From a virus, in IMG/VR virus record IMGVR_UViG_3300017923_000003, positions 1 to 64,000 of that record: a stretch of DNA of 64,000 nt; one strand, given 5' to 3'. Of the stretch, positions 3,284 to 45,426 are shown in pieces (within the stretch, counting starts at the first letter, position 1; every line of letters begins with the position of its first letter). The notes under the pieces were generated by a model, which was not told the origin of the DNA, ran no database searches, and worked only from the letters and a program-made list of their open reading frames with translations. Both the position numbers and the translations under genes were made by a program.

Positions 3284-3298
3284 CACTCCTTTATAAAA

Positions 3299-3312: not shown

Positions 3313-3331
3313 TCATTTGGGGGTCAAAGGA

Positions 3332-3345
3332 AACAAACACTATAG
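3332..3345 (+). promoter_or_regulatory. AACA-type (late-like) promoter
   Basis: AACAAACACTATAG ends 26 nt before the ATG at 3371 and would drive the three-gene membrane protein unit 3371-4692. Confidence 0.55.
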
Positions 3346-3370
3346 TGTATAAAAGGAAAGGGTGAACATA

Positions 3371-3670: not shown

Positions 3671-3683
3671 GAGGTGAGAAAAA

Positions 3684-4205
3684 ATGAAAACTAAATTTAA
3701 ATTATTTCTTGCTAAACTCTCTGAATACAAAGAATATATTCTTTATGGGTTAACCATTGTTTTGTCCATCATAATTAGTGTGTCATTAAATAGTGATGGT
3801 AAAAAAATGAGAGAGAAAAGAAAAAAGAAAGTAGAGGAAAAGAAAGAAAAGACTAAAGAACTAAAAAAAGAAGCTAAAAAGAAAAAGGAAGAAAAAGAAA
3901 CTATTATAAAAGAAAACCAAAAAGAATTAAAAGAGGCAGCTAAAAAAACGGGCATAATAAAAGAGGACCAAGATAAGATAGATCGATTAAGAAAACAGGT
4001 TAAAGAACGGGGAAAAATTATAGATAAAGAAAAAGAATTAGCTGAAGAAACAGCTGAGAGAGTTGAAGAAATAAGAGAAAAAAATGACAAAAAAATAAAG
4101 GAACAGGAAGAGGAATTAAAGAAAGTGAGGGAAGAGGATGTTGAACTCACAGATGAAGAAGTTAGCGATACTTTTGATAGTATTCTTAATGACGATACAA
4201 ATTAG
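3684..4205 (+). CDS. N-terminally anchored coiled-coil protein (spanin-like topology)
   Basis: The 173-residue product starts at ATG 3684 behind AGGAGGTGA. One membrane segment at about residues 17-36 (YILYGLTIVLSIIISVSL) is followed by roughly 120 residues of Lys/Glu-rich heptad-like sequence. Its last 68 bases overlap the next gene in another frame. An N-terminal anchor with a long charged helix, overlapped by a secreted partner, is the layout of inner spanins, but spanins belong to phages of Gram-negative hosts. I therefore describe it only as a membrane-anchored coiled coil. Confidence 0.6.
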   Translation: MKTKFKLFLAKLSEYKEYILYGLTIVLSIIISVSLNSDGKKMREKRKKKVEEKKEKTKELKKEAKKKKEEKETIIKENQKELKEAAKKTGIIKEDQDKIDRLRKQVKERGKIIDKEKELAEETAERVEEIREKNDKKIKEQEEELKKVREEDVELTDEEVSDTFDSILNDDTN

Positions 4206-4692
4206 TCCTGTTGTTTTTGCACATGGTGAACTAAACGAAGAGGAAGAGAAAAAGATAGCCGAGGAAATTGTGAAATTAAGAAATGAAATCGGTGTATTAG
4301 AAACAAATAATGAAGAATTAAAATCTATGCTAGAAGAAGAACGTGAGATACATGATAAAAGAGTTAACGAACTTAAAGGAACCATAAATACACTGGAAAA
4401 ACAAAATGCCGATTTAACCACCATTAAAGATTACTATATGGAATTGGTTGGTGCTTTAATGGAAGAAAACCGATTGTTAAAGGAATCATTAAAAGAAGAA
4501 CGTATAGCTAATGATCAGTACACCATGAAATTAGAAGACATAACCGAAACACAGGATGAGACTATCGTAAATTTAGATGAGATAAACGAATCATTAGAAA
4601 GAGAAAATACAAGATTGAGAATTCAATCCAAAATAAATAAATACTTATACTTTGGTATAGGTGTTGGAATAACTTACCTTATATTAAAATAA
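4138..4692 (+). CDS. secreted coiled-coil protein with C-terminal anchor
   Basis: The frame starts at ATG 4138, or more likely at ATG 4153, which begins a clear signal peptide (MKKLAILLIVFLMTIQISPV, then VFA before a possible cleavage at HGEL). A heptad-like helix of about 130 residues follows, then a hydrophobic C-terminal segment (YLYFGIGVGITYLIL). The 5' end is nested in the preceding gene. The product would be exported and held to the membrane at its C-terminus, so the pair could form an extracytoplasmic helical complex. Its role in lysis or surface modification is unknown. Confidence 0.6.
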   Translation: MLNSQMKKLAILLIVFLMTIQISPVVFAHGELNEEEEKKIAEEIVKLRNEIGVLETNNEELKSMLEEEREIHDKRVNELKGTINTLEKQNADLTTIKDYYMELVGALMEENRLLKESLKEERIANDQYTMKLEDITETQDETIVNLDEINESLERENTRLRIQSKINKYLYFGIGVGITYLILK

Positions 4693-4697
4693 CACAC

Positions 4698-4720
4698 GGT
4701 GGGTTTAAAACCCACCTTTC
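4698..4720 (+). terminator. intrinsic terminator
   Basis: GGTGGG / CCACC-type hairpin (4698-4703 with 4711-4716, loop TTTAAAA) followed by TTTCTTTCT closes the membrane protein unit. Confidence 0.75.
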
Positions 4721-4745
4721 TTTCTCTACGATATAAAACGTCGAG

Positions 4746-4759
4746 AACAATCCAATTAG
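4746..4759 (+). promoter_or_regulatory. AACA-type (late-like) promoter of RNA polymerase beta
   Basis: AACAATCCAATTAG ends 30 nt before the ATG at 4789 and follows directly after a terminator, so it is the only candidate promoter for the beta gene. Confidence 0.55.
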
Positions 4760-4788
4760 ACCACAATGAATTAAAGAGAGGTGTTTAT

Positions 4789-7740: not shown

Positions 7741-8047
7741 CAATTTTAGGTCCCACCATATAGTAATATATGAGTGCGTATCCCCTTAACCTTAATCAAG
7801 GGTGTGTTAGATGTATTCTAATGCTAACGGTATCAGTTGAATAAGATCACCTGTGTGACAATCACGGGTATTGACCAAGAGCGAAGGAACTGACTAAGAG
7901 ACCCTAAGACCCAAACATTTGAATATGAATGGGTAGCTGGAAATACCGTGCTACTAAAGAGTGTAACGACTACCTCGCAAGAGGGTACTATTGAATATTG
8001 ATAACCAATAGGAAACAGGGGAATACCAAAAAAAAAAAGGATACAAT

Positions 8048-8860
8048 TTAAATTGTACCCCTTAATTTTCTTAATGTTTGTACAGAAATATTGAATTTTT
8101 TCGCTATCGAATTAAATGAGTAATCGTTATACCCATTCTCTTTATTTTTCAAAACACGTATTATTTCTTTTTGATCTCTAAGAGAAATGGAATTGAAATC
8201 GTTGGTTGCTTTTTTTAAATTATAAGATTTACTTATATGTGTGTATGTTTTTCTTAAACGGATATCGTTTATTTTATAAACGGGAATGTCGGTTATTTCA
8301 CTTATGAAATGATTTCTTTCACCTTCTTCGATAAGCTCACATATCCTTTTTACTTGGGTGACTGAAAGAGATCTGGCGTAACCCTTATCCATTTCTTTAG
8401 GGTCGTATAAACCTGTGTCTAATGCATGCTGGAAATTCTCCGCACTGGTGCACCATTCCAAATTAGTTATATGGTTGTCTTTTTTAATTCCATTCATATG
8501 GTTTACGGTTAGGTTTTCGTGATTTTTATTGTAGTTAAAGAGTAAAGAAACTAACCTATGAGCAGTATATTTATTTCTTTTCTTTGGAAAAGTATCTTTA
8601 AAGGATAACGAATAATAAATATAACCGTAACTATTAATCAATGGTTTTAGCAAACCACCATAAAACTCACTATAGACATACCCGTTTAAACTAATGTAGT
8701 AATAATCTTTAATTTTGTTTATCACGTTATTTATTTTTCTCATAAAATAAATATTAGAATTAACTTTAACAACATATAAGTTTTTTTTAAAATCATCTTT
8801 TAATTCGATAGGAAATATTTCTTGACTTAAGGATACAAATTCTTTTTCATATAAATGCAA
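8048..8860 (-). CDS. HNH homing endonuclease, antisense within beta intron
   Basis: The 270-residue product uses TTG at 8860, preceded by AAAGGAGG (8869-8875). An upstream in-frame GTG at 8929 would run through the intron S element. An HNH_3-type core reads HRLVSLLF, then VNHMNGIKKDN and NLEWCTSAEN about residues 136-170. The C-terminal third contains two helix-turn-helix-like segments (around SVTQVKRICELIEEG and SFNSIAKKFNISVQTLRKL), typical of modular intron endonucleases. It runs opposite to the intron and host gene and has its own early-type promoter at 8885. Confidence 0.82.
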   Translation of the reverse strand: MHLYEKEFVSLSQEIFPIELKDDFKKNLYVVKVNSNIYFMRKINNVINKIKDYYYISLNGYVYSEFYGGLLKPLINSYGYIYYSLSFKDTFPKKRNKYTAHRLVSLLFNYNKNHENLTVNHMNGIKKDNHITNLEWCTSAENFQHALDTGLYDPKEMDKGYARSLSVTQVKRICELIEEGERNHFISEITDIPVYKINDIRLRKTYTHISKSYNLKKATNDFNSISLRDQKEIIRVLKNKENGYNDYSFNSIAKKFNISVQTLRKLRGTI

Positions 8861-8884
8861 TTTGTTTTCCTCCTTTCTGTATAT

Positions 8885-8896
8885 ATAATATATAAT
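8885..8896 (-). promoter_or_regulatory. early-type promoter for the antisense endonuclease
   Basis: An exact minus-strand ATTATATATTAT lies 25 nt before the TTG at 8860, inside the intron, next to the S element of the ribozyme core. Confidence 0.55.
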
Positions 8897-8973
8897 CGTT
8901 TTTTGGTATATAATATAGTCTAGTCCCACTTATTTATTAAGTGTCAAAGTATCTCGAAAGAGAGGGTATATCG

Positions 8974-10137
8974 GCCCCAAGAACTGCTATGAATTTAAGT
9001 CAGACAAACCACCTTATGGGTGTTGAAGATGCAGACCCCCTAATGGTCTCCACTGGTGCAGATGAAGCTTTAGCACATATGTCAAATGAGTTTGTTAGAA
9101 AATCTAAAAAAGACGGCGTGGTATCTAATATATCTGGAAATTATATTACCGTGGAATACTCTGACGGAACAGAAGATAGTTTCCCTATAAATTCTGTAGA
9201 AAAGAATTCAGCTAAAAGTATGTATATATCTAACGAAATGAAGTTGATGCCAAAAATTAAAGTTGGTAAGAAAATAAAAGCCGGCGATGTTTTAGCATAT
9301 AATAAAAACTTCTTTAAAACAGACGGATATTCACTTCATTTTACTCCTGGTCCAATAGTTACTCTAGCATTACATTCAGCACCAGAGACTTATGAGGATT
9401 CCACTATGGTTTCTAGATCACTTACAAAAAGATTAGCAACAAAGGTTATTAAAAAATATGCTGTTCTTTTAAAAAATGATGCTAAAATACATGAGTCTGT
9501 TGCAGAATTCAAAGAGGTGAGATCTGGAGAACCGTTAATGGTTTTCGAATCCATGACTGGTGATGAAGAGGTTGATGAGTTTTTAAATGTAGAGTCATCA
9601 GAATTAAATCAACACGAAAAGAAAGTAAAACGTGGTGGTAGAATAGTTGATATGAGAGTTTATAGAACTTCTAATCTTGACGAATATTCAAACAGTATAC
9701 AATACCATATAAGAAAAATAGATGATTTTTTATTAAATAACAAACAATCTAATGCTAAACAGTTGGAAGAACATGGTTCAACTGAAAGTAAAATTCTTTT
9801 CGGTAAGAAAAATGCTAAGGTAAAGGTTGGTGATAAAATAAATGGTATAAAACTTAATAAAGATGAAGTTTTATTTGAGTATTATGTGGAAAGTTATGAT
9901 ATCTTCTCCACTGGTGATAAGGGTACAAACTATACCTCTTTAAAAGCCATTAATGCCAGAGTTTACGATGACGAGAAGATGCCAACAGGTGTTGAAACTG
10001 GTAGAAATGTTGATGTGGTTTTATCACCAAATTCACCTATGAAAAGAATGACTAACTCTGTTTTTATTTCAGGGCTCCTAACAGGTGCAATGAGAAAACT
10101 TATAAAACAGTGTAAAGAAGATATGGACATCGAATAA
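8974..10137 (+). CDS. phage RNA polymerase beta subunit, exon 2
   Basis: Exon 2 supplies 387 residues, beginning APRTAMNLSQTNHLM, the continuation of the DDxxRALMGxNMQ motif. It goes on through ETYEDSTMVSRSL (the YEDAIVIS-type segment) to GDKGTNYTSLKAINARVYDD and MPTGVETGRNVDVVLSPNSP near the end. These correspond to the GDK..GRHGNKGVV and DGTPVDIVLNPLGVPSRMN segments of cellular beta, where the HGNKG part is degenerate. A reading frame can be opened at GTG 8941 but its first 11 codons are intron sequence. Confidence 0.88.
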   Translation, partial: APRTAMNLSQTNHLMGVEDADPLMVSTGADEALAHMSNEFVRKSKKDGVVSNISGNYITVEYSDGTEDSFPINSVEKNSAKSMYISNEMKLMPKIKVGKKIKAGDVLAYNKNFFKTDGYSLHFTPGPIVTLALHSAPETYEDSTMVSRSLTKRLATKVIKKYAVLLKNDAKIHESVAEFKEVRSGEPLMVFESMTGDEEVDEFLNVESSELNQHEKKVKRGGRIVDMRVYRTSNLDEYSNSIQYHIRKIDDFLLNNKQSNAKQLEEHGSTESKILFGKKNAKVKVGDKINGIKLNKDEVLFEYYVESYDIFSTGDKGTNYTSLKAINARVYDDEKMPTGVETGRNVDVVLSPNSPMKRMTNSVFISGLLTGAMRKLIKQCKEDMDIE

Positions 10138-10164
10138 AAAAAAAATAATTAGGGGATGATAGTA

Positions 10165-10374
10165 ATGGTTAATGGTGTATTTATTAAATCTTCAAGAGAA
10201 ATAGAAAGAGATAAGATTTTACAAAGAATTGAGGAGCTAGAAAAGGATGAAAGAAATAATGCACAAGAATTGATTGAGCTTTGGCGTAGATATAAGAAGT
10301 CAGGTAAAAGTTACACATCTCCAGATGAAGAATTAGCTAATAAAAAGATTAAGTTACTGAGAAAATTTGTTTAA
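10165..10374 (+). CDS. small unknown protein
   Basis: The 69-residue product probably starts at ATG 10165. The ATG at 10156 abuts the AGGGG site. It is highly charged and mostly helical, with a likely coiled coil (LQRIEELEKDERNNAQELIE). It follows beta by 27 bases and ends at a bidirectional terminator, so it is the distal gene of the beta unit. No family is recognised. Confidence 0.6.
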   Translation: MVNGVFIKSSREIERDKILQRIEELEKDERNNAQELIELWRRYKKSGKSYTSPDEELANKKIKLLRKFV

Positions 10375-10380
10375 TAAAAA

Positions 10381-10404
10381 AACCCAGGGTTTTACCCCTG
10401 GGTT
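10381..10404. terminator. bidirectional terminator
   Basis: AACCCAGGG / CCCTGGGTT with T-runs on both sides ends the beta unit and the convergent unit 11665-10409. Confidence 0.85.
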
Positions 10405-10408
10405 TTTA

Positions 10409-10597
10409 TTAGTTGCGAATTAGTAAACCTTTTTCATCGACTGACACATTTAAGTGACCCACATATACTGGTTCATCACCAAAAGAAACTTCCCACCATT
10501 TCTTTTCCTTTTCATTGTAGATACCATACCCCCAAGAAAACTCATGTCTAGTATAAACCTCATTCTCTTTTGATGATTCAAATTTTAATTTAAACAT
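10409..10597 (-). CDS. small unknown protein, FSWG family
   Basis: The 62-residue product starts at ATG 10597 behind AAGGGGG. It shares FSWG, a short charged turn and KKKW-hydrophobic with its upstream neighbour (HEFSWGYGIYNEKEKKWWEV here, AFSWGAATKDMKKDKWLTIV there), so the two look like tandem paralogues. No function is recognised. Confidence 0.6.
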   Translation of the reverse strand: MFKLKFESSKENEVYTRHEFSWGYGIYNEKEKKWWEVSFGDEPVYVGHLNVSVDEKGLLIRN

Positions 10598-10610
10598 GGT
10601 TCATCCCCCT

Positions 10611-10829
10611 TTAATTTCTCCTCTTATTTTTTATGAATCTTATTCCGCCATCGTCAATTACCACATCTCGTTCACTTACATCTAAAGCTGTCTCAGCATC
10701 AAAAACAATAGTTAACCATTTATCTTTTTTCATATCTTTGGTTGCTGCACCCCAACTAAAAGCAAAAACTGCATACCTATCTTTATTATAGTCTTTTCTA
10801 AATTGGTTTAAATTAACTACTTCACCCAT
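10611..10829 (-). CDS. small unknown protein, FSWG family
   Basis: The product has 72 residues if started at ATG 10829. A GTG at 10841 is possible but lies further inside the preceding gene. The first 13 bases overlap the end of thyX, implying translational coupling. It is paralogous to the gene at 10409 through the FSWG...KKDKW block. It is cotranscribed with thyX from the AACA-type promoter at 11687. Function unknown. Confidence 0.6.
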   Translation of the reverse strand: MGEVVNLNQFRKDYNKDRYAVFAFSWGAATKDMKKDKWLTIVFDAETALDVSERDVVIDDGGIRFIKNKRRN

Positions 10830-11665
10830 TTTGTATTGCACCTTTTAGATTCCTTTATCATTTCTTTTACTTCTTCATGGGTTATGATACTACATGCTCC
10901 ATGTTGTCTGCTGTTTTCTGGACAATACCCTAAAGAAACACAACTTGCACCGGCATCCTTAAATAAATCTGGGAATACATCCTTACAGATATCTTTTGTT
11001 TTATTAGCCATATCTCTAACACCATCTTGAGCTGTCATACAACATCTGATTTTAAACCAATCTAAAAGACCATGTGCATTCATACTGAATACACCTTTAA
11101 ATTCTGTAGCTTGTGGTTTCAAATATCTTAAATTCTCTTCAGGAAGACCCAACTCAACACCTTCATCATACCACTTCTCCATCATAGATAATAGGTCATA
11201 CCCATCAAAATCAAATGTAATATCCTCTCTCCCTACATTATCATAACCAGCATCATATAAAATTTCATCTAAGGGTATACCGTCTACAAAAATATCTTCT
11301 GGTTTTAAGTTATATTCGGTATTATGATAAAGAATGTCTTCAGGAACAACAACATCAAATTTTCTTTTCCCATTCTTTTCAACTCTTCCAGATTTTATCA
11401 TGTATGAAGCCAACCGTTTTCTTATTAACTGGGCTTCTGTTACTCTTGCATAACCTTCAACACCAAATATAAAATGATCAAATTCAGTGCAGGCTAAATG
11501 TCCAGATTCTAAAATGTTTTTTATAATTTCTTTATTATAATCGCTCCCTACTATTTCTTCAACATTTCTTTCTGAACCCACAAACCTAGCCACAACATCG
11601 GTAAAACATTTACCACCACCAGATAAAAGATGAACTTTTCCATTACCAACTATATTTACATTCAT
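10817..11665 (-). CDS. thyX: flavin-dependent thymidylate synthase ThyX
   Basis: The 282-residue product makes dTMP from dUMP with methylene-tetrahydrofolate and FAD/NADPH. The start is ATG 11665 behind GGGAGG. The ATG at 11680 precedes that site and is rejected. The ThyX signature appears at residues 82-94 as RKRLASYMIKSGR, which keeps the R-x-R-x7-S spacing but has Lys in place of the usual His of RHR. The upstream HLACTEFDHFIF block matches the H..ExxxFxF segment, and ATEFKGVFSMNAHGLLDW matches the conserved substrate region (TEFYWTVNARSL type). It is slightly longer than cellular ThyX. It heads a unit with the two FSWG genes. Confidence 0.85.
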   Translation of the reverse strand: MNVNIVGNGKVHLLSGGGKCFTDVVARFVGSERNVEEIVGSDYNKEIIKNILESGHLACTEFDHFIFGVEGYARVTEAQLIRKRLASYMIKSGRVEKNGKRKFDVVVPEDILYHNTEYNLKPEDIFVDGIPLDEILYDAGYDNVGREDITFDFDGYDLLSMMEKWYDEGVELGLPEENLRYLKPQATEFKGVFSMNAHGLLDWFKIRCCMTAQDGVRDMANKTKDICKDVFPDLFKDAGASCVSLGYCPENSRQHGACSIITHEEVKEMIKESKRCNTKWVK

Positions 11666-11686
11666 TATATTACCTCCCATTATTTT

Positions 11687-11699
11687 CTATAAACTTGTT
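11687..11699 (-). promoter_or_regulatory. AACA-type (late-like) promoter of thyX
   Basis: Minus-strand AACAAGTTTATAG ends 22 nt before the thyX ATG. Confidence 0.6.
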
Positions 11700-11726
11700 A
11701 CCATAAAATAAAAATATTTTTACTAT

Positions 11727-11739
11727 AACAATATACTAG
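11727..11739 (+). promoter_or_regulatory. AACA-type (late-like) promoter of the leader RNA
   Basis: AACAATATACTAG on the plus strand precedes a structured leader that ends in a terminator. It is divergent with the thyX promoter. Confidence 0.55.
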
Positions 11740-11891
11740 AGGAAGATTAAGAAAAAAATACACTGTGAACTTATTGAAACTATCCCAAGTGTCTTAGATG
11801 AGATCATTTTGTATTTCTCTTAATCCCTTGCCTTGTTTTCTCCATATTAATTCCTTATAAGATGTGGGGGTAAAACCCCACACATTTTTTT
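11740..11891 (+). ncRNA. structured leader or small RNA upstream of the DUF1540-dcd unit
   Basis: About 150 nt lie between an AACA-type promoter and an intrinsic terminator with no convincing reading frame. GATTAAGA (11745-11752) pairs with TCTTAATC (11818-11825) and AAATAC (11756-11761) with GTATTT (11811-11816), giving a long-range stem with a small internal loop. The terminator hairpin at 11863-11882 follows, only 30 nt before the next start codon. This is either a transcription attenuator or riboswitch-like leader for the downstream nucleotide gene, or a free small RNA. No known riboswitch class is recognised. Confidence 0.45.
11863..11891 (+). terminator. intrinsic terminator in leader (possible attenuator)
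   Basis: TGTGGGG / CCCCACA with loop GTAAAA is followed by CA and seven T. It lies before, not after, the coding sequences of its strand, so read-through must be allowed for 11921-12706 to be expressed from the promoter at 11727. Confidence 0.75.
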
Positions 11892-11920
11892 GTTTTGATA
11901 ACAATGAAATGGTGATAAAT

Positions 11921-12148
11921 ATGGATATAGAATTAGAAATGAGAATGTTACTTATGAAAGATAAAATTAAAAGACTCAATAAAAAGGAGATGGACAAAAT
12001 GAAAAACAAAATTAATGACGACATAAAATGTAATGTTCAAGAATGTGTATACAATGGGGAAAAAAATGAATGCAATTATATTGGTGATGCTAGGGTATCG
12101 CCGAATGATAAAGAAAATTGCCCAATGTATGTTAACGGCTTAATTTAA
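11921..12148 (+). CDS. small cysteine protein, DUF1540-like
   Basis: The product has 75 residues from ATG 11921 (weak GGTGA site). An internal ATG at 11999 has a much better AAAAAGGAG and would give a 49-residue form. The C-terminal part has IKCNVQECVYN, then Cys, a valine-centred turn and Cys. This is the CxxxxCxxN...C...V...C layout of DUF1540, a short, probably metal-binding domain common in clostridia and bacilli. Function is unknown. It lies 18 bases upstream of the dCTP deaminase gene and behind the structured leader. Confidence 0.55.
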   Translation: MDIELEMRMLLMKDKIKRLNKKEMDKMKNKINDDIKCNVQECVYNGEKNECNYIGDARVSPNDKENCPMYVNGLI

Positions 12149-12166
12149 TATTAGAGGAGGGGGCTA

Positions 12167-12706
12167 ATGAAATTATCGGATGGTGGAATTTTAGATAGGA
12201 TTGATGAAGGTGATATTTATATAGAGGATTTTGATTTAGAGAGATTAAACCCAAACAGTTATAATCTTAGGTTACATAATGAATTGACTGTTTATGAAAA
12301 TTCCATTAATGGAGAACCACTTGATATGAGAAAGGAAATGAAAACAAAAACCTTTAAGATAGACAAAAAAAATGGGTTTTTAATGGAACCCAATAAATTA
12401 TATTTAGGTAGGACAAGAGAGTACACTAAAACGCATAATTTGGTACCAGGATTGGAAGGAAGAAGTTCTATCGGTAGATTGGGTATTGATATACATGCAA
12501 CCGCAGGATTTGGGGATAATGGCTTTGAGGGGTATTGGACACTTGAGCTCAGTTGTACAGAACCAGTTTTTTTGTATCCTAATATAGAGATATGTCAAAT
12601 CTATTACGAACCGTTGATGGGTCCCGTATTGAAAACATATGATAATGGTAAATATCAAAAAAATAAAGGTATACAGGGTAGTAGAATATACAGAGAATTC
12701 GAATAA
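12167..12706 (+). CDS. dcd: dCTP deaminase (dUTPase-fold family)
   Basis: The 179-residue product starts at ATG 12167 behind AGGAGGGGG. It should deaminate dCTP to dUTP and perhaps also hydrolyse dUTP, as bifunctional relatives do. Visible motifs are LSDGGI at the N-terminus, NPNSYNLRL at 28-36, EGRSSIGRLGIDIHATAGFG at 97-116 and FEGYWTLEL near 120-128, with the catalytic Glu in TLE. Length fits the family (170-190). With ThyX and thymidylate kinase it forms a route to dTTP, or to dUTP if the genome contains uracil. Confidence 0.87.
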   Translation: MKLSDGGILDRIDEGDIYIEDFDLERLNPNSYNLRLHNELTVYENSINGEPLDMRKEMKTKTFKIDKKNGFLMEPNKLYLGRTREYTKTHNLVPGLEGRSSIGRLGIDIHATAGFGDNGFEGYWTLELSCTEPVFLYPNIEICQIYYEPLMGPVLKTYDNGKYQKNKGIQGSRIYREFE

Positions 12707-12710
12707 AAAA

Positions 12711-12731
12711 AGCGAGGGTTAAACCCTCGCT
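12711..12731. terminator. bidirectional terminator
   Basis: AGCGAGGG / CCCTCGCT with loop TTAAA and A/T runs on both sides separates dcd from the convergent gene at 12737. Confidence 0.85.
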
Positions 12732-12736
12732 TTTTA

Positions 12737-13144
12737 TTACATTCTTTCATACACCCCTTTGATAAAGGAACCATAGTCATAGTTATCAAATAACGACTTC
12801 TTATTCTTTAGCTTTTTAAGACCCAAAGCCATCAAAAATTTATCGAAATTATTTAATCTCTCTTTTCTTCTATTACTCTCTATAGAATCAGCCAAATTCT
12901 TTAGTCTTTTTCCAATCATTTCTTCACCAAAAAGGAAGTAGTCTAAAGATAATGCGGCTAACTTTATAGCATCAACATCAATATATTCGGTGTAACCAGA
13001 AAAGAAATTGAATCTTATAAAGTAACTCTTTAAAGTGTTTATTTTATAAGTGTAAAACCTTTCTACATCATCATCTTCAGCTTCTTTTCTTGGATTGTGT
13101 TTTTTATAAAATTTGAGCATGCTATCTATATGTCTTTCGTCCAT
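12737..13144 (-). CDS. unknown protein
   Basis: The 135-residue product starts at ATG 13144 behind GAGGGTGG. The GTG at 13156 overlaps that site. It is helical and basic at the C-terminus. It is the last gene of the run 16733-12737, which is rich in paralogues, but it lacks their motifs. No family is recognised. Confidence 0.55.
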   Translation of the reverse strand: MDERHIDSMLKFYKKHNPRKEAEDDDVERFYTYKINTLKSYFIRFNFFSGYTEYIDVDAIKLAALSLDYFLFGEEMIGKRLKNLADSIESNRRKERLNNFDKFLMALGLKKLKNKKSLFDNYDYGSFIKGVYERM

Positions 13145-13161
13145 TTGTTTATCCACCCTCT

Positions 13162-13731
13162 CTATGATACAGCCATCGGATTCATTGCTAGTGTATTTTT
13201 TTCTTTTCTTAATAAGTGTTCTCCGTTCATTGAATTAATGAATTCTTTAGTTGTAAGACATTCCTTTTCCTTTGTTTTAAGATAATATCTATACAAATAA
13301 TCTGACATGTCTTTTAATATGTTGTCTGTTCTTATTATTGGAAAATAAGCTGGTATGCTATACTCGGTTATTTGATAGTGTATATCCATTACAATTTCTT
13401 TTTTAAATGTTTTATAAAAACCATCCTTACCAAGCACATTTATCAGTTTAACATAGTTCAATTTCTTGAAATTCTCCATATATATTAATGGGTCTTCACT
13501 AGCTGTTGTGATTTCAAAATATCTCCTAATGTTTTTAACTCTTTCTATATAATTATCATCCATGTCGGATTTATCTATATATTCACATAACCAACCAAAC
13601 CCTTTCATTTGAATCTTTTTATTAAATTCTTCTTCGCTTAAATTATTAAACTCCATATCCAGACTCATTTCCTCCGACTTAGTATTGACACCGAAAATAG
13701 TAAGTAAAAATATAATCAATTTCTTTAACAT
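13162..13731 (-). CDS. member of an expanded phage paralogue family, with signal-like N-terminus
   Basis: The 189-residue product starts at ATG 13731 (the ATG at 13740 abuts the AAAGGGG site). The first 15 residues (MLKKLIIFLLTIFGV) look like a signal peptide or anchor, unlike its relatives. Two shared blocks follow: LSEEEFNKKI...GWLCEYIDKS...YIERVKNIRR, and NYVKLINVLGKDGFYKTF...MDI. These correspond to LEFSKLIGEYG...YIN...RIKNL and LDKKKLIDAMGNEDF...LDI of the neighbour at 13815. It lacks the C-terminal region of the longest members. Function unknown. Confidence 0.6.
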   Translation of the reverse strand: MLKKLIIFLLTIFGVNTKSEEMSLDMEFNNLSEEEFNKKIQMKGFGWLCEYIDKSDMDDNYIERVKNIRRYFEITTASEDPLIYMENFKKLNYVKLINVLGKDGFYKTFKKEIVMDIHYQITEYSIPAYFPIIRTDNILKDMSDYLYRYYLKTKEKECLTTKEFINSMNGEHLLRKEKNTLAMNPMAVS

Positions 13732-13785
13732 ATTTAACATCCCCTTTATTAGTTTGTTTTGTTTAATTGAAGTTTGACACTTAAA

Positions 13786-13809
13786 AAAGCAGGGTTTTAC
13801 CCCTGCTTT
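13786..13809. terminator. intrinsic terminator
   Basis: AAAGCAGGG / CCCTGCTTT with loop TTTTAC lies 6 nt after the stop of the gene at 13815. Confidence 0.8.
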
Positions 13810-13814
13810 ATAGT

Positions 13815-14795
13815 TTATGGCATATCAACCATTTCTATTATATAATAGAATAGGTCATCATAATTTGTGAACCTATCATCTTTTTCATAATAGAAAATAT
13901 AATCCAATAACCAACCTTGACTTCTCAAATTAGACATCTCACCTTCAGGGTCATAAAAATATATTAACCCATGTAGGGTTGAATCCATAAAGAATACATC
14001 TAAAGAATATTCATCATTGAAATAATCGTTCGTTTCTGCAATGTGTCTTATGAAGGGATACAGAGGGTGTTGGTACAATATATCCCTGAAATCTTTAAGC
14101 ATTTTTGCAATATTAGCCATATCGATATCTGTTAATGGTGATAGATAAAGTGTATCTTCATCATAAATACCTATACCGTGCTCATCATAATTGGGGTGGT
14201 TTATTAACTCTCCTGTTGATTTATCAAATAAAGCTTTATCATTACTTTCTAAATGACTTTCTTTAAAAAGATAACCCCAAATGTTTTTGGCTTTATCCAT
14301 TATACGTTCAATAAAAACTGAATCATTAATCACAATATTTTCAACACAACTTAATAAAAGATCAGAGTTTTTAATATATTCGATATACCCTGGTAGATTA
14401 ACTAAGATTCCGTTTTCGTCTGTAGAGTATATTATATCTAAAGCTATGAGGTTTGCAAATCTATATACAAAATCTTCATTACCCATAGCATCTATTAATT
14501 TCTTTTTATCCAGATGTTTATAAAAGAAAATCGATTCAAAGAAAGTTCTCACTATTTTATCTTTATCATTGTCTGACCCATATAACCGATCGTAAGGGAA
14601 AGAAATTTTGAGGTTTTTTATCCTTTCACAATATTCTTTATTGGTTTTAGCTTCATTAATATATTTCAATAAAAATATATAACCATACTCTCCAATCAAT
14701 TTAGAAAATTCCAAATTAGATATATTATCAATATTGATAACATCTAATCCTCCTATATCATCTCTTCTTCTTAATGTGTCTGGAAAATTTCCCAT
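13815..14795 (-). CDS. full-length member of the expanded paralogue family
   Basis: The 326-residue product starts at ATG 14795 behind AAAGGAG. Blocks shared with the genes at 13162, 15487, 16365 and 19312 are LEFSKLIGEYGYIFLLKYIN with EYCERIKNL, then LDKKKLIDAMGNEDFVYRF with LDI, and, shared with 19312, a C-terminal LIYFYDPEG and FYYEKDDRFTNYDDL. It is soluble, acidic and has no recognisable catalytic motif. I know no described family with these features. Confidence 0.65.
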   Translation of the reverse strand: MGNFPDTLRRRDDIGGLDVINIDNISNLEFSKLIGEYGYIFLLKYINEAKTNKEYCERIKNLKISFPYDRLYGSDNDKDKIVRTFFESIFFYKHLDKKKLIDAMGNEDFVYRFANLIALDIIYSTDENGILVNLPGYIEYIKNSDLLLSCVENIVINDSVFIERIMDKAKNIWGYLFKESHLESNDKALFDKSTGELINHPNYDEHGIGIYDEDTLYLSPLTDIDMANIAKMLKDFRDILYQHPLYPFIRHIAETNDYFNDEYSLDVFFMDSTLHGLIYFYDPEGEMSNLRSQGWLLDYIFYYEKDDRFTNYDDLFYYIIEMVDMP

Positions 14796-14811
14796 TGTAC
14801 ACACACTCCTT

Positions 14812-15474
14812 TTATAACAGTTTATTAACCATTATTTTTATTATTCTATAATTATCATCTTCTTGTACCACACCCTCTTGATTTTTCTTTTTTAATATAC
14901 TTTTCCTGTGTTTTTTGTTCAACTCTCCTCTCAAATATTTCAATTCATATTTGTGTAGTCTTTCATAGAGAGTTTTATATTGGTTACTTTCTTTTAATGC
15001 CATAAACATTTTAACTTTATTTAAAAAAGGATATTCATCCAAAGTAACATCCCCCAAACCCCTCTGGAAGAAATCTCCTTCTAATGAGTTATAATAGAAA
15101 ACCACACTCTGTACCCCTAAAGGGAGAACAGATGTTGCAATTCTCTTTTTTACAAATTCAATATAATCATTATATTTTCTTTTTGTGGGATAACGGCCAT
15201 AAACCCAAACAGCATCTTTTACAACTTCATAAATGTTATCTTCTAAACCATTATCTTCAATAAATGTTTTCACAAACCTTTTCAATCTTTTTGTGAAGGC
15301 ATTATATAATTCTTTATCATCTCTAAACATCATACCAACTTTCACTACCCTTGTTTTTTTATCCGAATTTTTTAGTTCTAAATATTTTTCTTCTGATATC
15401 AAGCCACCTGAAAATAAGACATTGATGTTAGCTTTCCTTATATCATATTCAGTGATCTTTATTTTTTGGTACAT
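14812..15474 (-). CDS. unknown protein with polymerase motif A-like segment
   Basis: The 220-residue product starts at ATG 15474 (AGGATGTGA upstream). The N-terminal segment ITEYDIRKANINVLFSGGLI resembles, by eye only, the D-x-x-S/A-x-Y/N-P/x motif A of DNA polymerases. A later VVKDAVWVYGRY is reminiscent of an aspartate-bearing strand. The C-terminus is basic. It does not share the motifs of the surrounding paralogue family. I do not assign a function. Confidence 0.5.
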   Translation of the reverse strand: MYQKIKITEYDIRKANINVLFSGGLISEEKYLELKNSDKKTRVVKVGMMFRDDKELYNAFTKRLKRFVKTFIEDNGLEDNIYEVVKDAVWVYGRYPTKRKYNDYIEFVKKRIATSVLPLGVQSVVFYYNSLEGDFFQRGLGDVTLDEYPFLNKVKMFMALKESNQYKTLYERLHKYELKYLRGELNKKHRKSILKKKNQEGVVQEDDNYRIIKIMVNKLL

Positions 15475-15486
15475 TCACATCACATC

Positions 15487-16359
15487 CTAAACTCGTTTAT
15501 AATATTTACTTTCCATCAGTTCCTCATATAAATTTTGATATATGATGTCTATGTTTTTGTCATTTGTTTCTATCATAAATAGTGGTGAGGTTAAAAGATT
15601 ATATTTTTCTTTATCAACCCCTTGAACATGTATAAAATTTTTTAACATCTTTATTATTAGTTTTTCGATAAGTTTATCTTTATCATCTATCAACTCATAA
15701 TATTTTATAGTTGGTATTATTTCATCTATGAAGTTTTTGAAATTACCTTCATCTAAATTCTTTAGTATTTTACCAAAATCATCATTTCCAAGAGGTAACA
15801 TGCCCCCACCAATTCTTTCGCTATTAAGTTCGGGTTTATATTTATTCTCAAATAATCTCTTATAAAGACCGTACAATGTTGATTTGATTTTCTTATTCCC
15901 AATAAAATTCGAATAGATAAATTCATATATTATTTTTTTAGATGATTCATCATTCAACATCCCAAAATACTCTGGAAGCGAGTCACCCTTAAAAGAACGC
16001 ATATCTATAATAATAGCATGTAAAAATATATCTACAAATTTCTCATCACCTATAATCTTTATTATTTTTTCTTTATCAAGTTTATCAAATAAACCCACCA
16101 ATTCATTATGGATTCTCGAACAACTTTTTTTATAATGAGATTTCACGTCACCATTTTCAACTAAAAGCATCTTTTGAAAAGAAAGATACCTGTTACATTC
16201 TTTTAATTTTTCAAAATTCCTTTTTAAAGAATTTATTCTTCTTCCAACTTCCTTTTCATTTTGACATTTATTTATATAGTCTGCTATAAAATCAAAACCA
16301 TACATCCCATACAAATTTCTATATTCTTTATCTGTTAAAACTCCACCAGAATTATACAT
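15487..16359 (-). CDS. member of the expanded paralogue family
   Basis: The 290-residue product starts at ATG 16359. The ATG at 16368 overlaps the GGGAG site. Shared blocks are TDKEYRNLYGMYGFDFIADYIN with RRINSLKRNF near the N-terminus, and LDKEKIIKIIGDEKFVDIF followed by IIIDM and LPEYFGML in the middle. The C-terminal region differs from 13815 and 19312. It is cotranscribed with the short member just upstream. Confidence 0.6.
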   Translation of the reverse strand: MYNSGGVLTDKEYRNLYGMYGFDFIADYINKCQNEKEVGRRINSLKRNFEKLKECNRYLSFQKMLLVENGDVKSHYKKSCSRIHNELVGLFDKLDKEKIIKIIGDEKFVDIFLHAIIIDMRSFKGDSLPEYFGMLNDESSKKIIYEFIYSNFIGNKKIKSTLYGLYKRLFENKYKPELNSERIGGGMLPLGNDDFGKILKNLDEGNFKNFIDEIIPTIKYYELIDDKDKLIEKLIIKMLKNFIHVQGVDKEKYNLLTSPLFMIETNDKNIDIIYQNLYEELMESKYYKRV

Positions 16360-16364
16360 TGAAA

Positions 16365-16733
16365 TCATCTCCCATTATGATATCTATATTTTTCATATGC
16401 AATATAATCTATTAAGTTATATTTTTCTATACCCACATTAAGATCGAATGTTAACCCTTCAATCAAATCGTTTAAGAAGATTTCATCTCCCAAAATTTTA
16501 TGAAGGTTATCCTTACGCATATTCATAAGATGATCTATTAATTTCCTTGCATCATTCTCGTCTTTTATCTTTTCCATTTTTCTATAATAAAAGATTTTAA
16601 CACTCTCTCCACTACAAGGAGCGTACAAATAATACAAAAAATCATTTTCCATCAATAACCTAACCCTTGTTTTTGGTAGGATATCGTTGGGGTTCATACA
16701 CCCCAATAGATCTTTATGATCGTATATATACAT
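16365..16733 (-). CDS. short member of the expanded paralogue family
   Basis: The 122-residue product starts at ATG 16733. It retains only the second block (DNLHKILGDEIFLNDLIEGLTFDL) after a unique N-terminus, so it is either truncated or a minimal version. It begins 9 nt after the stop of the beta-prime N-terminal gene, so it is probably read from the same transcript, downstream of the intron. Confidence 0.55.
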   Translation of the reverse strand: MYIYDHKDLLGCMNPNDILPKTRVRLLMENDFLYYLYAPCSGESVKIFYYRKMEKIKDENDARKLIDHLMNMRKDNLHKILGDEIFLNDLIEGLTFDLNVGIEKYNLIDYIAYEKYRYHNGR

Positions 16734-16741
16734 AACCACAC

Positions 16742-16909
16742 CTACTCTTCTAAACTAGATTTAAATATTAATGACTGAGATTTTATTAGACTTAACCCCT
16801 CATTAACTTTCCTTTTATAATCTACTATGTGTACTTTAGGTTGCATATACACATGGATGTCCATATATAAATCTCTATCTTGGTGTGTCATAGTAAGTGC
16901 ATCACCATC
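16742..16909 (-). CDS. RNA polymerase beta-prime N-terminal half, exon 2
   Basis: Exon 2 encodes 55 residues beginning DGDALTMTHQDRDLYMDIHV and ending at TAG 16742-16744. It has no start codon of its own. It completes the metal-binding motif of the active site: joined to exon 1 it reads YNGDHDGDALTM, equivalent to NADFDGDQM of cellular beta-prime. The frame is kept exactly by splicing 17964 to 16909. Confidence 0.85.
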   Translation of the reverse strand, partial: DGDALTMTHQDRDLYMDIHVYMQPKVHIVDYKRKVNEGLSLIKSQSLIFKSSLEE

Positions 16910-17963
16910 CGTTTACACCCTGGTTTTCACCAAATTTATCTTACTAGGGACTAGACTATATCATCAGCATCTCAGCTGCTCTGCTTTTGGGTACTCAATT
17001 TCTCTTTCCCTACTCTACTAAGTTCTCATCGGCCATATCATTCAACCGAATCCCTTTTCGATAGTCGTTGAACGTTTTGTTTTGTGTTATTTTTTAAATA
17101 GATATCCCTAACATCATACACCCTATGTCTATTGGTATTATGTCTTTTAGCGATATCTTTTATACTCAATTTATCATTTATGAGATCATCGATGATACTT
17201 TTTATCTGATCCAGATTCAGAGAACGAAACTTATGCATTTTACCAAAGGTATACTGTTTTGTAATGTCAGTATAGTTGGTTTTATTACATATTTTTTTTA
17301 CAGCTTCATATGAAACATCGAATTTATCTGCTATATGTTTGGGTCTTTCTCCTTTTTCTCTTTCTTCGCATATTTTGTGAATTAAACCTAAATCTTTTAT
17401 ATAATCACCGTATTCGTCACGAACACCGTTTTTAATTGAATGTCTCCAATTTTCTCTATTTGTCACCCATTCTAAATTATATAGATAATTATTTTTCTTA
17501 TCTAGATCTTTATGGTTCACCACCATGTTGTCGTGATTGTCTATATAATTGAATACTAACATCAATAAACGATGCACACCAAAAGATTTTTTATTACCGG
17601 TTTTATCATACAGGTCAACTTTCAAATAGCCACGTTTGTGGTCATCATGTGTTGATAAGAAACCACCTGTATATTCACTATAAACGAACCCACCATCACA
17701 TATATAATAGATGTCTTTTATATCGAAAAGAATATCCGATATACGTCTCATATAAAACTCTTTTTCGTTCTCTTTATAAAATATAGTATTTTTAGTAAAA
17801 TTATCGTTAAATAATTCATGTGTCATAGAAATCACCCCTTTTCCACACACACAAAACAACTTCGCTGCTGATTACCCACACCATTAGTGTTTGGGCTTCC
17901 CAGCAATTAACAGAGTTTTTCATAGCATCTTCTTTTATTCGATTGCTATGCCACTTTTTTCAA
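16910..17963 (-). mobile_element. group I intron in RNA polymerase beta-prime
   Basis: This 1054-nt intron has canonical core signals on the minus strand: P (AATTGCTGGGAAGCCC), Q (AATCAGCAGCGAAG), R (GTTCAACGACTATCG, 17059-17073) and S (GATATAGTCTAGTCC). The 5' splice site is supported by P1: exon CCAT pairs with intron GTGG, leaving the required U-G pair at the exon end. The last intron base is G. A sense-oriented HNH endonuclease lies inside, and its final codons overlap R. Confidence 0.9.
17038..17826 (-). CDS. HNH homing endonuclease in beta-prime intron
   Basis: The 262-residue product starts at ATG 17826 behind AAAGGGGTGA. The HNH core is HRLLMLVFNY, VVNHKDLDKKNN and NLEWVTNRENWRH at about residues 85-130. 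Helix-turn-helix-like segments follow (RPKHIADKFDVSYEAVKKI, and KDIAKRHNTNRHRVYDVRD near the end). It is in the same direction as the intron, unlike the other two endonucleases. Its last codons double as the R element of the ribozyme, which constrains both protein and RNA. It is homologous to the endonucleases at 8048 and 49237. Confidence 0.82.
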   Translation of the reverse strand: MTHELFNDNFTKNTIFYKENEKEFYMRRISDILFDIKDIYYICDGGFVYSEYTGGFLSTHDDHKRGYLKVDLYDKTGNKKSFGVHRLLMLVFNYIDNHDNMVVNHKDLDKKNNYLYNLEWVTNRENWRHSIKNGVRDEYGDYIKDLGLIHKICEEREKGERPKHIADKFDVSYEAVKKICNKTNYTDITKQYTFGKMHKFRSLNLDQIKSIIDDLINDKLSIKDIAKRHNTNRHRVYDVRDIYLKNNTKQNVQRLSKRDSVE

Positions 17964-19166
17964 ATGGTCGCCATTGTATCCTTCAAGCAGAACAGAAGGT
18001 ATCCTTAATACATTTTCATCTTCGAGACTTGATATCCTCAATGATTTGGTGGATTCAAATTTTAATGTCGGTTGTCTATTGACGAGAACATAATTGTTCT
18101 CGATATCTTTTTCCAGTATCTCATCAAGAACTTTCTTATCGTCTTCTCTTAGATCGATATTAATATCAATAAACCTATAAGCTCTATCTACTGGCATCCC
18201 ATTATTGACTAGAACATCAAATATCTCTCTTCTAAATATACCTCTAAAGACATCATAAGGTACAGTTATCGCATCAATATGTTTGGTGACATGTGGCACA
18301 ATCACACAACGTGAAGTAAAGGGTAATCTTGTTGCGAATATCTCGTTACGTAATATCTTTTCTTTACCCCCACCGACTATTTCTGTTATTAAGTTGTCGT
18401 TTAAATCCCAGTATTTTCTCTGTATAGCTCTAACAGTATTTTCTGTAATCTTTGGGGTATTTTCTCTATCACAGTAATCCCTTAGAGTTTGTATGTCACC
18501 AGATATTGATGTGTATATACTATTCATATCATGAATTGTATAATGGGGAACGATATTCTCGCTCCTGTGTAGATACCTTGTTTTCTTACTTATCACAGGT
18601 ATATACGATGTGAAGAAATCTTCTTTGTGTTTTAAAAGAAATTTAGTGGTGTCTGATTTAGATGATTTACCTACCTTCTTTAAAACTATATCAAATTTCT
18701 CATATAATTCTGTAACCTTTATTTTACTTCCGTCCTCTGTTTTTAACTTCCCATTCAAAAATTTCTTAAAGTTCTTTCTCCCAAGTACAGTTCTAAAGTG
18801 TAGTAAACCTGCATAAGTCATTATTTTATGTGGTGCTATTTTACCCCAAGCTCTTATCGTTATTGGGAACTCTTGTTTTTTTACTTTATAACCACACTCA
18901 GGACAAACTCTCCCTTTATTATTCTGACCTAATAAATTCTCACATTTACATGTGTAAAGATAAGCCAGTATACTTTTAGGATCTGATTCACTTATTCCAA
19001 ATTTTCTAGAATAAATAGAATCACTCATTAACATTTCCTCTTTGTACAAATAAAGGTAGTTTATACTGGTATCTAACATGAAACCAGTTTCATTCTTAAT
19101 GTCTTTTTTAACTAATTTTTCTAAATTCAAAAATGAAAAACTAAGTCCTTTTCTACCCATCTCCAT
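17964..19166 (-). CDS. RNA polymerase beta-prime N-terminal half, exon 1
   Basis: Exon 1 encodes 401 residues from ATG 19166 (AAGGAG seven bases upstream). A zinc-type site CKC...CPEC lies at residues 73-91. The segment NRQPTLKFESTKSLRI at 363-378 matches the NRAPTLHRLGIQAF motif of beta-prime, and it ends at LLEGYNGDH, half of the NADFDGD metal site. The protein stops shortly after the catalytic loop. The C-terminal half is a separate gene at 43569, the split arrangement known from phiKZ and AR9. An early-type promoter lies at 19229. Confidence 0.9.
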
Positions 19167-43568: not shown

Positions 43569-45392
43569 CTACTGTTTATCTTTTCTTCTACTTTCAAATA
43601 GTATATCGAATTTAGAAGGTTTAGTTTTCTCGTAGTTTCTCAAATCAGAAAGCATAGATTTAAAGAACCCGATATTCAATTTAAGACCGAGTTCTTTAAA
43701 GTTTCTTATCGCTGTCTGCATTGTTAGTATCTCCTCTTTTGGTTCTTCTTTAGAATAATCAGGTCTCTCCTCATTTTGACCCTCTTTTCTAATGATGTTT
43801 CTAATTAAGAGATATGGCACAATTGCTTTTTCCTTTTTCATCAGCTGTTTTAATTCTTTCATTGCCTTTTGTATGTTACCATTGTTTTTATTGAATACCT
43901 TATCCAATTCATGGTATCCAGATGAAACGGGGTTATTTATAATCTCGATATGGATTTTTTCTATATCATCTACTAATCCAGACTCGTAATCTATATTCGG
44001 TTTTTCAGTATAAAATACAGAGTTAGTTTGGAATTCCATTGTGTCACCATTTTTCATTTTGATTTCCATTTTTCTTCTGAATCTGGCTTTCCTTTTACCC
44101 TTATCCTTTATCTTAATCAACCTTATCTCATCGATGTTCTTTTTAAACCCTTCTTTAAAAACCAATTTATTTATATACTTTAAATCGAAATAATCGTGCC
44201 AGTTTTTCTTTCCATTTATTCTGGTTAAAGGTTTCCCATCTTTGTCAAAGAGTTTCGCTACAATATTGTGCTTAGCAGATAGGTGACCCTGAACCTTTGG
44301 TGCAACTTTCTTTTTAGATATAGCAACACCGAAGTTTCTTTCTCCACCATGATAACCTTGAAGATTATCGTAATATAATTTTTCACCGATACAGTAATGA
44401 CAAACACCATCATCACTATTACATGTGTAAGGTTGTCTTAGTAATATTTTTTTACCAATCAAATGTGTGTCCTTTTCTGTTATCAGTTGTGGTTTACCAT
44501 CGACTTGATGGTATAAATCTATAAATCTTTGGAAGTCCTTTTCATCTTCTATCTTCTCTTCTGCAAAATGAATGGTGTCACAACAGTAATCAGGGTCTGG
44601 ATTTAAATAATTTGGTTGTGCCAACATTGTAGAACGCTTATTGAATGTACCAGTTTTTCTTATATCCAGTTTCTGGATTATTAAAGCATTTCTTGCTGAA
44701 TCATTTTCAGCCCAAAAGGAATCTTTATTGGTGAGACCATTGAGCCAATTCTCGTTAATAAGGAAAGGATAGACACTATCTTTATTATTGGGTCTTATAC
44801 CAACACCTACCACTATATCATGAAACTGTGGCTTACGCATAGCAGCTTCAGCAGTAAGGAAGGTATACATAGGATCTATCTTTTCTTTTAAAATAAAATC
44901 TTCAATCTCTTTAGATAACTTCTGCTTTTTTCTCATTATCTCAAAGGCATTCATTTCTTCATTAAAATTATTCCCACTTAAAATTTCTCTCATTCTGTCA
45001 GATTTCTTCATCATTTTTATGAAGTCATATAAAGATATATCAACTGATAATCTAAAATTAAATATCAGTGTATACTCATTAACTCTTTCTTGAACTTCAT
45101 AAATTAAATCTTTGGTTTCATCGACCGTTTTCCCAAGTCTAAAACATTCGTCGATAATTCTCTGTTTGTAATTGGTTAAGTTGCTACTTGAACCAGTTTC
45201 TAAAAATAAGAATTCTTTCACTCTTAATTTTTTGGGTAACACATCAAATACAAGTGCATTCAAACCAGCTCTAGCAATAGTTAATTTTATTTCCTCATTA
45301 TTTAAACTGAACATCTTTTTTTGTTTGTAGTTTTTTATGTTTAATTTTAGATCTCTTACAATCTCTTCTCCATCTTTAACTATATCTAACAT
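43569..45392 (-). CDS. RNA polymerase beta-prime C-terminal half
   Basis: The 607-residue product starts at ATG 45392. A GTG at 45404 falls inside the ribosome site. The segment NDSARNALIIQKLDIRKTGT with NKRSTMLA matches the trigger-loop and bridge-helix region of beta-prime ([26 protein letters not shown]). It is followed by a zinc-type cysteine set (CCDT, then CNSDDGVCHYC) and a conserved VAPKVQGHLSAKHN block. It complements the N-terminal half at 16742-19166. Both an AACA-type site (45427) and an early-type site (45510) lie upstream, so it may be made throughout infection. Confidence 0.85.
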   Translation of the reverse strand: MLDIVKDGEEIVRDLKLNIKNYKQKKMFSLNNEEIKLTIARAGLNALVFDVLPKKLRVKEFLFLETGSSSNLTNYKQRIIDECFRLGKTVDETKDLIYEVQERVNEYTLIFNFRLSVDISLYDFIKMMKKSDRMREILSGNNFNEEMNAFEIMRKKQKLSKEIEDFILKEKIDPMYTFLTAEAAMRKPQFHDIVVGVGIRPNNKDSVYPFLINENWLNGLTNKDSFWAENDSARNALIIQKLDIRKTGTFNKRSTMLAQPNYLNPDPDYCCDTIHFAEEKIEDEKDFQRFIDLYHQVDGKPQLITEKDTHLIGKKILLRQPYTCNSDDGVCHYCIGEKLYYDNLQGYHGGERNFGVAISKKKVAPKVQGHLSAKHNIVAKLFDKDGKPLTRINGKKNWHDYFDLKYINKLVFKEGFKKNIDEIRLIKIKDKGKRKARFRRKMEIKMKNGDTMEFQTNSVFYTEKPNIDYESGLVDDIEKIHIEIINNPVSSGYHELDKVFNKNNGNIQKAMKELKQLMKKEKAIVPYLLIRNIIRKEGQNEERPDYSKEEPKEEILTMQTAIRNFKELGLKLNIGFFKSMLSDLRNYEKTKPSKFDILFESRRKDKQ

Positions 45393-45426
45393 CTTATCCC
45401 TCACCTCATGTTTTTATATTTTCAGA

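Follow-up and report, generated by a model that had tools for sequence, protein, structure and literature searches.

A group I intron with an HNH gene at the catalytic aspartate codons of a putative phage non-virion RNA polymerase gene

Earlier papers describe several introns in phage RNA polymerase (RNAP) genes. In PhiPA3, an intron lies in the β gene of the virion RNAP (vRNAP) (PMC11620839), and an intron joins two open reading frames (ORFs) into one protein (PMC10449902). Group I and group II introns are reported from the N-terminal β′ (β′ N) gene of a virion enzyme (PMC12350094), gene g189 of AR9 is stated to contain an intron (PMC5312081), and introns have been proposed as the cause of split RNAP genes in jumbo phages (PMC7598289). 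Here we describe an insertion in a 64,000-nucleotide (nt) stretch of viral DNA, positions 1 to 64,000 of IMG/VR record IMGVR_UViG_3300017923_000003 (hereafter, the window). A group I intron of 1,054 nt, with an HNH gene inside it, splits a β′ N gene on the minus strand between YNGDH and DGDAL. The break falls in the DxDGD motif, whose three aspartates (Asp) hold the catalytic Mg2+ (PMC7598289; PMC8287921). The insertion is very probably a mobile group I intron in the gene of a non-virion RNAP (nvRNAP). In the passages covered by our literature search we found no mention of introns in the DxDGD motif of an nvRNAP, nor of staggered positions there, and a prior description is possible. The case of AR9 stands in its record annotation and that of phiKZ in the chain names of PDB. 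The AR9 and Machias genes were probably first described by Lavysh 2016 and Korn 2021.

Exon 1 reads to ..LLEGYNGDH, runs on into the intron as LKKVA and meets a stop; the frame is picked up at 16909 as DGDALTMTHQDRD.. and ends at 16742. The joined exons form one open frame, ..GYNGDH/DGDALTMTH.. (a slash marks the insertion point here and below), with CAT-GATGGTGAT as the predicted spliced junction, and shifting exon 2 by one base in either direction leads to stops. With the end of exon 1 placed anywhere at nt 900-1220 of the gene, an open DxDGD-type motif arose in 18 of 341,865 exon-end/exon-start pairs; one of these 18, the proposed pair, also has an exon-final T and an intron-final G, a criterion that was picked after the fact. 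Translation of unspliced mRNA would halt after five intron codons (..GDHLKKVA and stop), ahead of Asp 2 and Asp 3, so the enzyme should need splicing. An earlier reading of the window from its letters alone (the sequence-only reading) had called the phage polymerase inactive without splicing; this should hold for the truncated product, but the wording is too wide, as only the non-virion enzyme is concerned. The in-frame stop lies at intron nt 16-18, and according to a review such an early stop is viewed as a ribosome stall that lets the intron fold (PMC3984707).

Two contigs matched exon 1 at 100% protein identity in a scan of viral contigs: L002, from a record of 146 kb, and L003, from one of 195 kb. 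In both, the β′ N gene is uninterrupted and its product is the joined window protein of 456 amino acids (aa). Blastn matches of these sister sequences to the window end at 17964 and restart at 16909, which gives both intron ends at single-base resolution. Seven of the 1,203 nt of exon 1 and one of the 168 nt of exon 2 are different in the sister, all without amino-acid change; the intron is thus present in one and absent from the other of two nearly identical phages. The window comes from a 77.5-kb virus record and the intron-less contigs from two other IMG/VR record numbers, as might be expected if the difference were an assembly chimera or an annotation artefact. This explanation is exceedingly improbable, since the boundaries follow the rules of group I introns and joining at them restores the frame exactly, and since a difference of this kind also exists between two isolated phages with the same protein sequence at the flanks, AR9 (with an intron) and Goe21 (with none).

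Exon 1 matches PF00623 (E 7.8e-8) and phrog_2987 (E 5.8e-30). When the sister protein, from the gene without an intron, was used as query, the AR9 enzyme was the best match among solved structures (7s00_d, E 2.5e-13, and 7s01_d, both about 2e-13), and phiKZ PHIKZ055 was matched at 3e-5. The NGDHDGD of the joined protein aligns with SGDYDGD of AR9 nvRNAP chain 7s00_d and with NADFDGD of cellular-type β′, in agreement with the NADFDGD-type assignment made in the sequence-only reading. Because of this relatedness to AR9 and phiKZ, and because a β′ C-terminal (β′ C) partner of the same kind is encoded elsewhere in the window, the split gene, with its DxDGD motif and separate partner, is taken as the putative β′ N subunit of an AR9/phiKZ-type nvRNAP. 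A σ70-like promoter scan of 16700-18100, which excludes phage-type promoters, gave 5 sites against a mean of 8.1 in shuffled sequences, i.e., no sign of such a promoter.

The intron could be arranged into a group I core with complete P3 (5/5 pairs), P4 (5/5), P5 (4/4), P6a (9/9), P7 (6/6) and P8 (3/3), P/Q and R/S pairing being present. P1, P2, P7.1 and a P9-region hairpin are also formed, and P9 itself has 3 of 4 pairs. The intron ends in G and the exons rejoin in frame, as in group I introns; from its sequence it belongs to this class, and self-splicing with guanosine is predicted. A related intron of 1,051 nt was found in the DNA polymerase gene of a sister genome, G001 (contig L025, 2672..1622, minus strand), after IDTDS (IDTDS/NMVA, which we take to be DNA polymerase motif C). 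It is 73% identical to the window intron over the 3′ core, and different bases still pair in P6a (10/10), P7.1 (4/4), P8 (2/2) and the P9-region hairpin (4/4). The window has the empty site of this intron, so that the window phage and G001 each carry an intron that is absent from the other. The P4 region (window 17860-17923) is 78-80% like Staphylococcus phage DNA among the matches listed.

We built covariance models from other phage introns. From 42 loci with a 20-nt R word, 26 remained after dereplication and a search for S, and 21 were aligned after L047, L057, L066, L069 and L084, which are longer or diverge more in the stretch from the word to P8, had been excluded by hand. The resulting model, R1, matched the window at 16948-17073 with 71.5 bits (E 7.8e-12; next best 15.2), and R2, which is R1 rebuilt without the 20-nt word, with 35.2 bits (E 5.9e-4; next best 20.4), both E-values being rough. 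R2 is the fairer test, because R1 includes the word by which its members were chosen. Rfam RF00028 gives 97.3 bits for L046, a member of the set, and so links the set to genuine group I introns. Chance is unlikely as the source of the matches to the two models. Taken together, the empty site, the core helices and the model matches bear out what the sequence-only reading had proposed: a group I intron between YNGDH and DGDAL, with an exact spliced frame, a P1 containing the U·G pair (CCAU/UU with AAGUGG) and recognizable P, Q, R and S (R/S 6/6 in P7). The covariance search of the intron, which it had also suggested, succeeded with our own models but stayed below threshold with Rfam.

The intron ORF encodes an HNH protein. 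Its 273-aa form matches HNH_3 (E 1.9e-6, above the curated cut-off), phrog_59 (E 3.2e-33) and, slightly below the cut-off, HTH_23 (E 3.3e-5; 24 vs 24.6 bits). The 262-aa form matches PDB entry 1u3e, 'HNH homing endonuclease' (E 2.6e-10), which is presumably I-HmuI. An intron-encoded HNH domain, a DNA-binding module and an intron-less allele in a relative are thus all found, as in homing endonucleases, and the protein may cut or nick the intron-less site. The ORF extends into the core, over the 3′ strand of P6a and the 5′ strands of both P7 and P7.1; a review describes a comparable overlap of ORF and core in the T4 td intron (PMC3073962).

The insertion appears to be an ordinary parasitic intron at a preferred site, an apparent hot spot. 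At the RNA level, P1 to P9 would fold around the HNH gene, guanosine would attack after ..GACCAU and the exons would join, yielding an nvRNAP β′ N subunit with the full NGDHDGD metal site. At the DNA level, the HNH enzyme would cut or nick the intron-less allele of co-infecting relatives at the catalytic codons, and repair of that allele would copy the intron in. Splicing would render the insertion nearly neutral. Catalytic codons would be a good landing place because their sequence hardly varies and because imprecise loss would be lethal; a conserved-site rationale for intron retention is given in two reviews (PMC12908238; PMC3984707). In PhiPA3, an RNAP-gene intron encodes an HNH enzyme that nicks the gene lacking the intron, to the disadvantage of the rival phage phiKZ (PMC11620839).

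Several points weigh against the insertion being a splicing, mobile group I intron. Splicing is predicted from DNA, not RNA. Rfam gave no match in the window at the gathering threshold and none in 16700-18200 at E<=5; RF00028 matched only when the 3′ half was given alone, with 21.1 bits (E 0.0015; gathering score 50 bits). The gathering score is, however, a database threshold and not a defining trait of group I introns, and Rfam at E<=1 also misses the annotated AR9 intron, yet finds the phiKZ intron at 75.6 bits (RF00028). R1 and R2 were both built from loci picked by a 20-nt word from the window intron itself. The proposed P3 strands pair just 4/5 in the related G001 intron, and no relative of the window HNH protein was found in the phage collection at E<=1e-20. 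Across all 9,203 bases compared, the two contigs without the intron do not differ; therefore they represent one phage and a single witness of the empty site. The exon flanks are almost the same as those of the sister (8 differences in 1,371 nt), and three of the differences, at -7, -4 and +3, surround the site, which fits a short conversion tract, and equally chance or selection. The miss by Rfam, for an intron whose splicing is predicted from sequence, would also suit a decayed intron that no longer splices and leaves a dead β′ gene. Such decay is highly improbable: the core helices are present, as are the U·G pair and the terminal G, the reading frame of the HNH gene is open, and the exons, nearly unchanged relative to the sister, encode the same protein in exact frame.

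Compared with G001 in 300-nt bins, the window is 83-97% identical over 11.1-16.5 kb, 98-100% in the bins of the β′ gene and 98.7-100% over 22.5-24.0 kb. The window phage and its sisters are thus mosaics of recent exchange; the island of identity at β′ is not read as proof of a conversion tract. As a separate observation, window 1-11000 is ~100% (99.7-100%) identical to G001 and identity falls abruptly to 83-97% over 11100-16500, suggesting recent recombination between phages.

Next, we consider the β′ genes of other phages. Twenty-six phage records were fetched, and 25 were kept after Efs 1-1-1 (bacterial rpoC-like) had been dropped. The gene is interrupted within the motif in 13, only elsewhere in 1, and is intact at the motif in 11; these counts are not a frequency, because the records were hand-picked among the tblastn matches listed, many because the match broke near the motif. 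The existence of several different insertion positions is unaffected by this choice. The break lies at N/AD in phiKZ, 9-Ps-8B, U5, 30-1 and SL2, and at the matching G/AD for the first intron of Machias and AH12. It lies at AD/FDGD or AD/YDGD in Ab1-TPeters and for the second intron of Machias and AH12, at DG/D in AR9, PB50 and probably Serratia 2050HW (where the start of exon 2 is not fixed to the base), and at DGD/Q in W10-2 and phiLBG22. SL2 has an extra break near HRN/PTL, and LY01 is interrupted only outside the motif (ILNR/NPSIS). The motif is intact in JD-Fnp4, LPJP1, Proteus 10, SPLA10, JM-2012, MarsHill, BpSp, phiR1-37, EP_H11, Goe21 and PhiPA3. The window position, GDH/DGD, occurs in none of the 13 interrupted records, and with the window included there are five staggered insertion points in eight codons.

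An exon-final T and an intron-final G are found at seven junctions (AR9, PB50, Machias at both, phiKZ, W10-2 and Ab1-TPeters) and at five more in 9-Ps-8B, U5, 30-1, SL2 and phiLBG22. R1 found introns in 5 of the 6 interrupted loci given to it: AR9, W10-2, Ab1-TPeters, phiKZ and, twice, Machias. PB50 gave no R1 match at E<=1; there, the split of the gene and the presence of R/S-like words are the grounds for calling an intron. The PB50 β′ intron, at the AR9 position, has a 1,515-nt ORF (L039 3631-5145) annotated as a homing endonuclease. Eight of the 13 interrupted records (PB50, phiKZ, 9-Ps-8B, U5, W10-2, SL2, 2050HW and 30-1) annotate the second gene piece as a separate protein. Single-protein scans of viral contigs for β′ genes returned one AR9 copy in one scan and nothing in another, and the tblastn matches of PBS1 are those of AR9.

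The sequence-only reading had suggested that splicing acts as a switch on transcription, the change from early to late transcription awaiting excision of the intron or sensing the host state through it. Without splicing the enzyme should lack its full metal site, and introns interrupt this motif in several jumbo phages. A 2007 paper by Sandegren and Sjoberg reportedly correlates splicing of T4 introns with growth state, which would favour a switch. Nevertheless, nothing in our data supports a switch, and we consider it very unlikely. The sister without the intron keeps an identical protein, so control by splicing is dispensable there; Goe21 is an intron-less match of AR9, and 11 of the 25 records have an uninterrupted motif. 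The homing-type enzyme encoded in the intron, moreover, is what a parasite would be expected to carry. A broader proposal is that the DxDGD codons are a shared landing strip, entered independently by different group I introns at five or more staggered positions and partly adaptively, in that, at the early-to-late transition, a splicing-dependent nvRNAP would serve some jumbo phages as a timer or arm them against rivals. We regard this as unlikely.

Other introns and inserts are present in the window phage and its sisters. The window RNAP β gene (phrog_3148, phrog_14872) contains a second intron-like insert after two Asp codons. The insert holds an antisense HNH gene and is absent from G001 and from another sister, G002, both otherwise nearly identical to the window there. 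Rfam found nothing at E<=1 in 7700-8050, and R2 gave just 17.6 bits (E 0.89) at 8879-8926, which lends no group I support to this insert. At window 49237-50240, an antisense HNH gene lies just upstream of a DNA polymerase ORF (50245-52416); weak R1/R2 matches ending at 50221 (plus strand), and a similar weak match in sister contig L025, suggest a further DNA-polymerase intron.

G002 also has a second β′-type gene with an intact NGDYDGD, matching phrog_2986 (E 2.8e-58) to position 490 of 539 and no PDB entry at E<=1. The sequence-only reading had held that an uninterrupted second β′ N-terminal gene for the same enzyme would speak against its claim; an intact gene does exist, but the resemblance is superficial, and we rejected it as a second β′ of the same enzyme because it belongs to another family (phrog_2986 vs phrog_2987). 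Its product may be a virion-enzyme subunit that serves the other polymerase. On G002 contig L102 (1200-4945, minus strand), an R1 match and, next to it, a short ORF of HNH type come after the NGDYDGD gene; then comes a β′ C-type gene whose two parts (phrog_2962, 72-294 and 296-423) flank a second R1 match; Rfam at E<=0.5 found neither of these R1-positive stretches. Elsewhere, window 39157-40809 encodes a GroEL-like chaperonin (PF00118, E 2.1e-15; phrog_5725).

Table 1. Coordinates of the split β′ N gene, its intron and related features in the window
Feature	Position	Strand	Evidence or remark
nvRNAP β′ N-terminal gene (putative), exon 1; 401 codons, ends ..GYNGDH	19166..17964 (1,203 nt)	minus	PF00623, phrog_2987, AR9 7s00_d
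Group I intron	17963..16910	minus	empty site, R1 and R2 model matches, helices
P1, exon CCAU/UU with AAGUGG, U·G pair at 5′ splice site	17951..17967	minus	helix check; also in minimum-free-energy fold
P2 hairpin, CATAGC/GCTATG	17921..17950	minus	6/7 pairs tried
P3 5′ strand, ACTCT	17912..17916	minus	pairs with 17016-17012 (AGAGT)
P4 (17905-17901/17870-17866), encloses P5 and P5a	17866..17905	minus	helix check
HNH homing endonuclease ORF (putative) with C-terminal helix-turn-helix	17038..17826	minus	262 aa from ATG 17826 (273 aa from TTG 17859)
P6a 3′ strand, ACACAAAAC	17079..17087	minus	pairs with 17857-17849; pairing kept with other sequence in sister DNA-polymerase intron
P7 (17066-17061/16959-16954, R and S), encloses P7.1 (17049-17046/17032-17029), P3 3′ strand and P8 (17010-17008/16991-16989)	16954..17066	minus	
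Terminal intron G	16910..16910	minus	spliced frame, empty site
Exon 2; 55 codons and stop, begins DGDALTMTH, holds Asp 2 and Asp 3	16909..16742 (168 nt)	minus	frame, empty site
nvRNAP β′ C-terminal partner gene (putative)	43569..45404	minus	AR9 7s00_D E 1.1e-14; PHIKZ074 E 1.4e-8
Intron-like insert in RNAP β gene (exons 4699-7740, 8974-10137), KDD/APR	7741..8973	plus	HNH gene 8048-8929, minus strand

The window and its sister provide a clean intron-plus/intron-minus pair at one of biology's most conserved motifs. With five insertion points in eight codons in a modest phage set, an intron at the RNAP metal site is no single curiosity. This opens the question of why mobile introns settle on catalytic codons, and at what cost or benefit they are carried in a transcription enzyme. 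There is also a warning for annotation, since second gene pieces are listed as proteins of their own and Rfam missed the introns of the window and AR9 and both R1-positive stretches of L102.

The window intron is not unique: the gene it splits has homologues in AR9, phiKZ and other phages that are interrupted at neighbouring positions. In AR9, the same gene (BI022_gp269, HNH gene gp270) is broken at the same Asp triad by an intron with an HNH ORF inside, entered in the record as a two-piece join, and its group I core scores 80.3 bits with R1; unlike in the window, the break is 6 nt downstream (SGDYDG/D), the intron has 897 nt and the intron-less relative is Goe21. In phiKZ, an HNH-bearing group I intron likewise splits the nvRNAP β′ N gene (PHIKZ055, HNH PHIKZ056, PHIKZ056.1), and PDB chain 7ogp_A gives one sequence both names, PHIKZ055 and PHIKZ056.1; this intron, however, lies ahead of the first Asp (N/ADFDGD) and has 1,372 nt. 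In the Staphylococcus phages Machias and AH12 the same gene is interrupted in this motif too, but by two introns (182 and 180 nt), which flank a 6-nt exon, GCC GAT (Ala-Asp), in GMG/AD/YDGD. They form tandem group I introns (L036 2798-3167, L037 3550-3919), with no HNH gene annotated between the pieces. The β′ gene of Acinetobacter phage Ab1-TPeters is also split in the motif (R1 46.4 bits), with the differences that the break is at NAD/FDGD, the intron has 360 nt and the pieces are annotated as hypothetical proteins. Finally, the gp210 intron of PhiPA3 resembles that of the window in being an HNH intron that adjoins conserved Asp codons of a jumbo-phage RNAP gene, and differs from the β′ intron in that its host gene is β, not β′, and belongs to the virion enzyme (PMC11620839). 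It is the insert in the window β gene that looks to be at the position corresponding to the gp210 intron, DD/.

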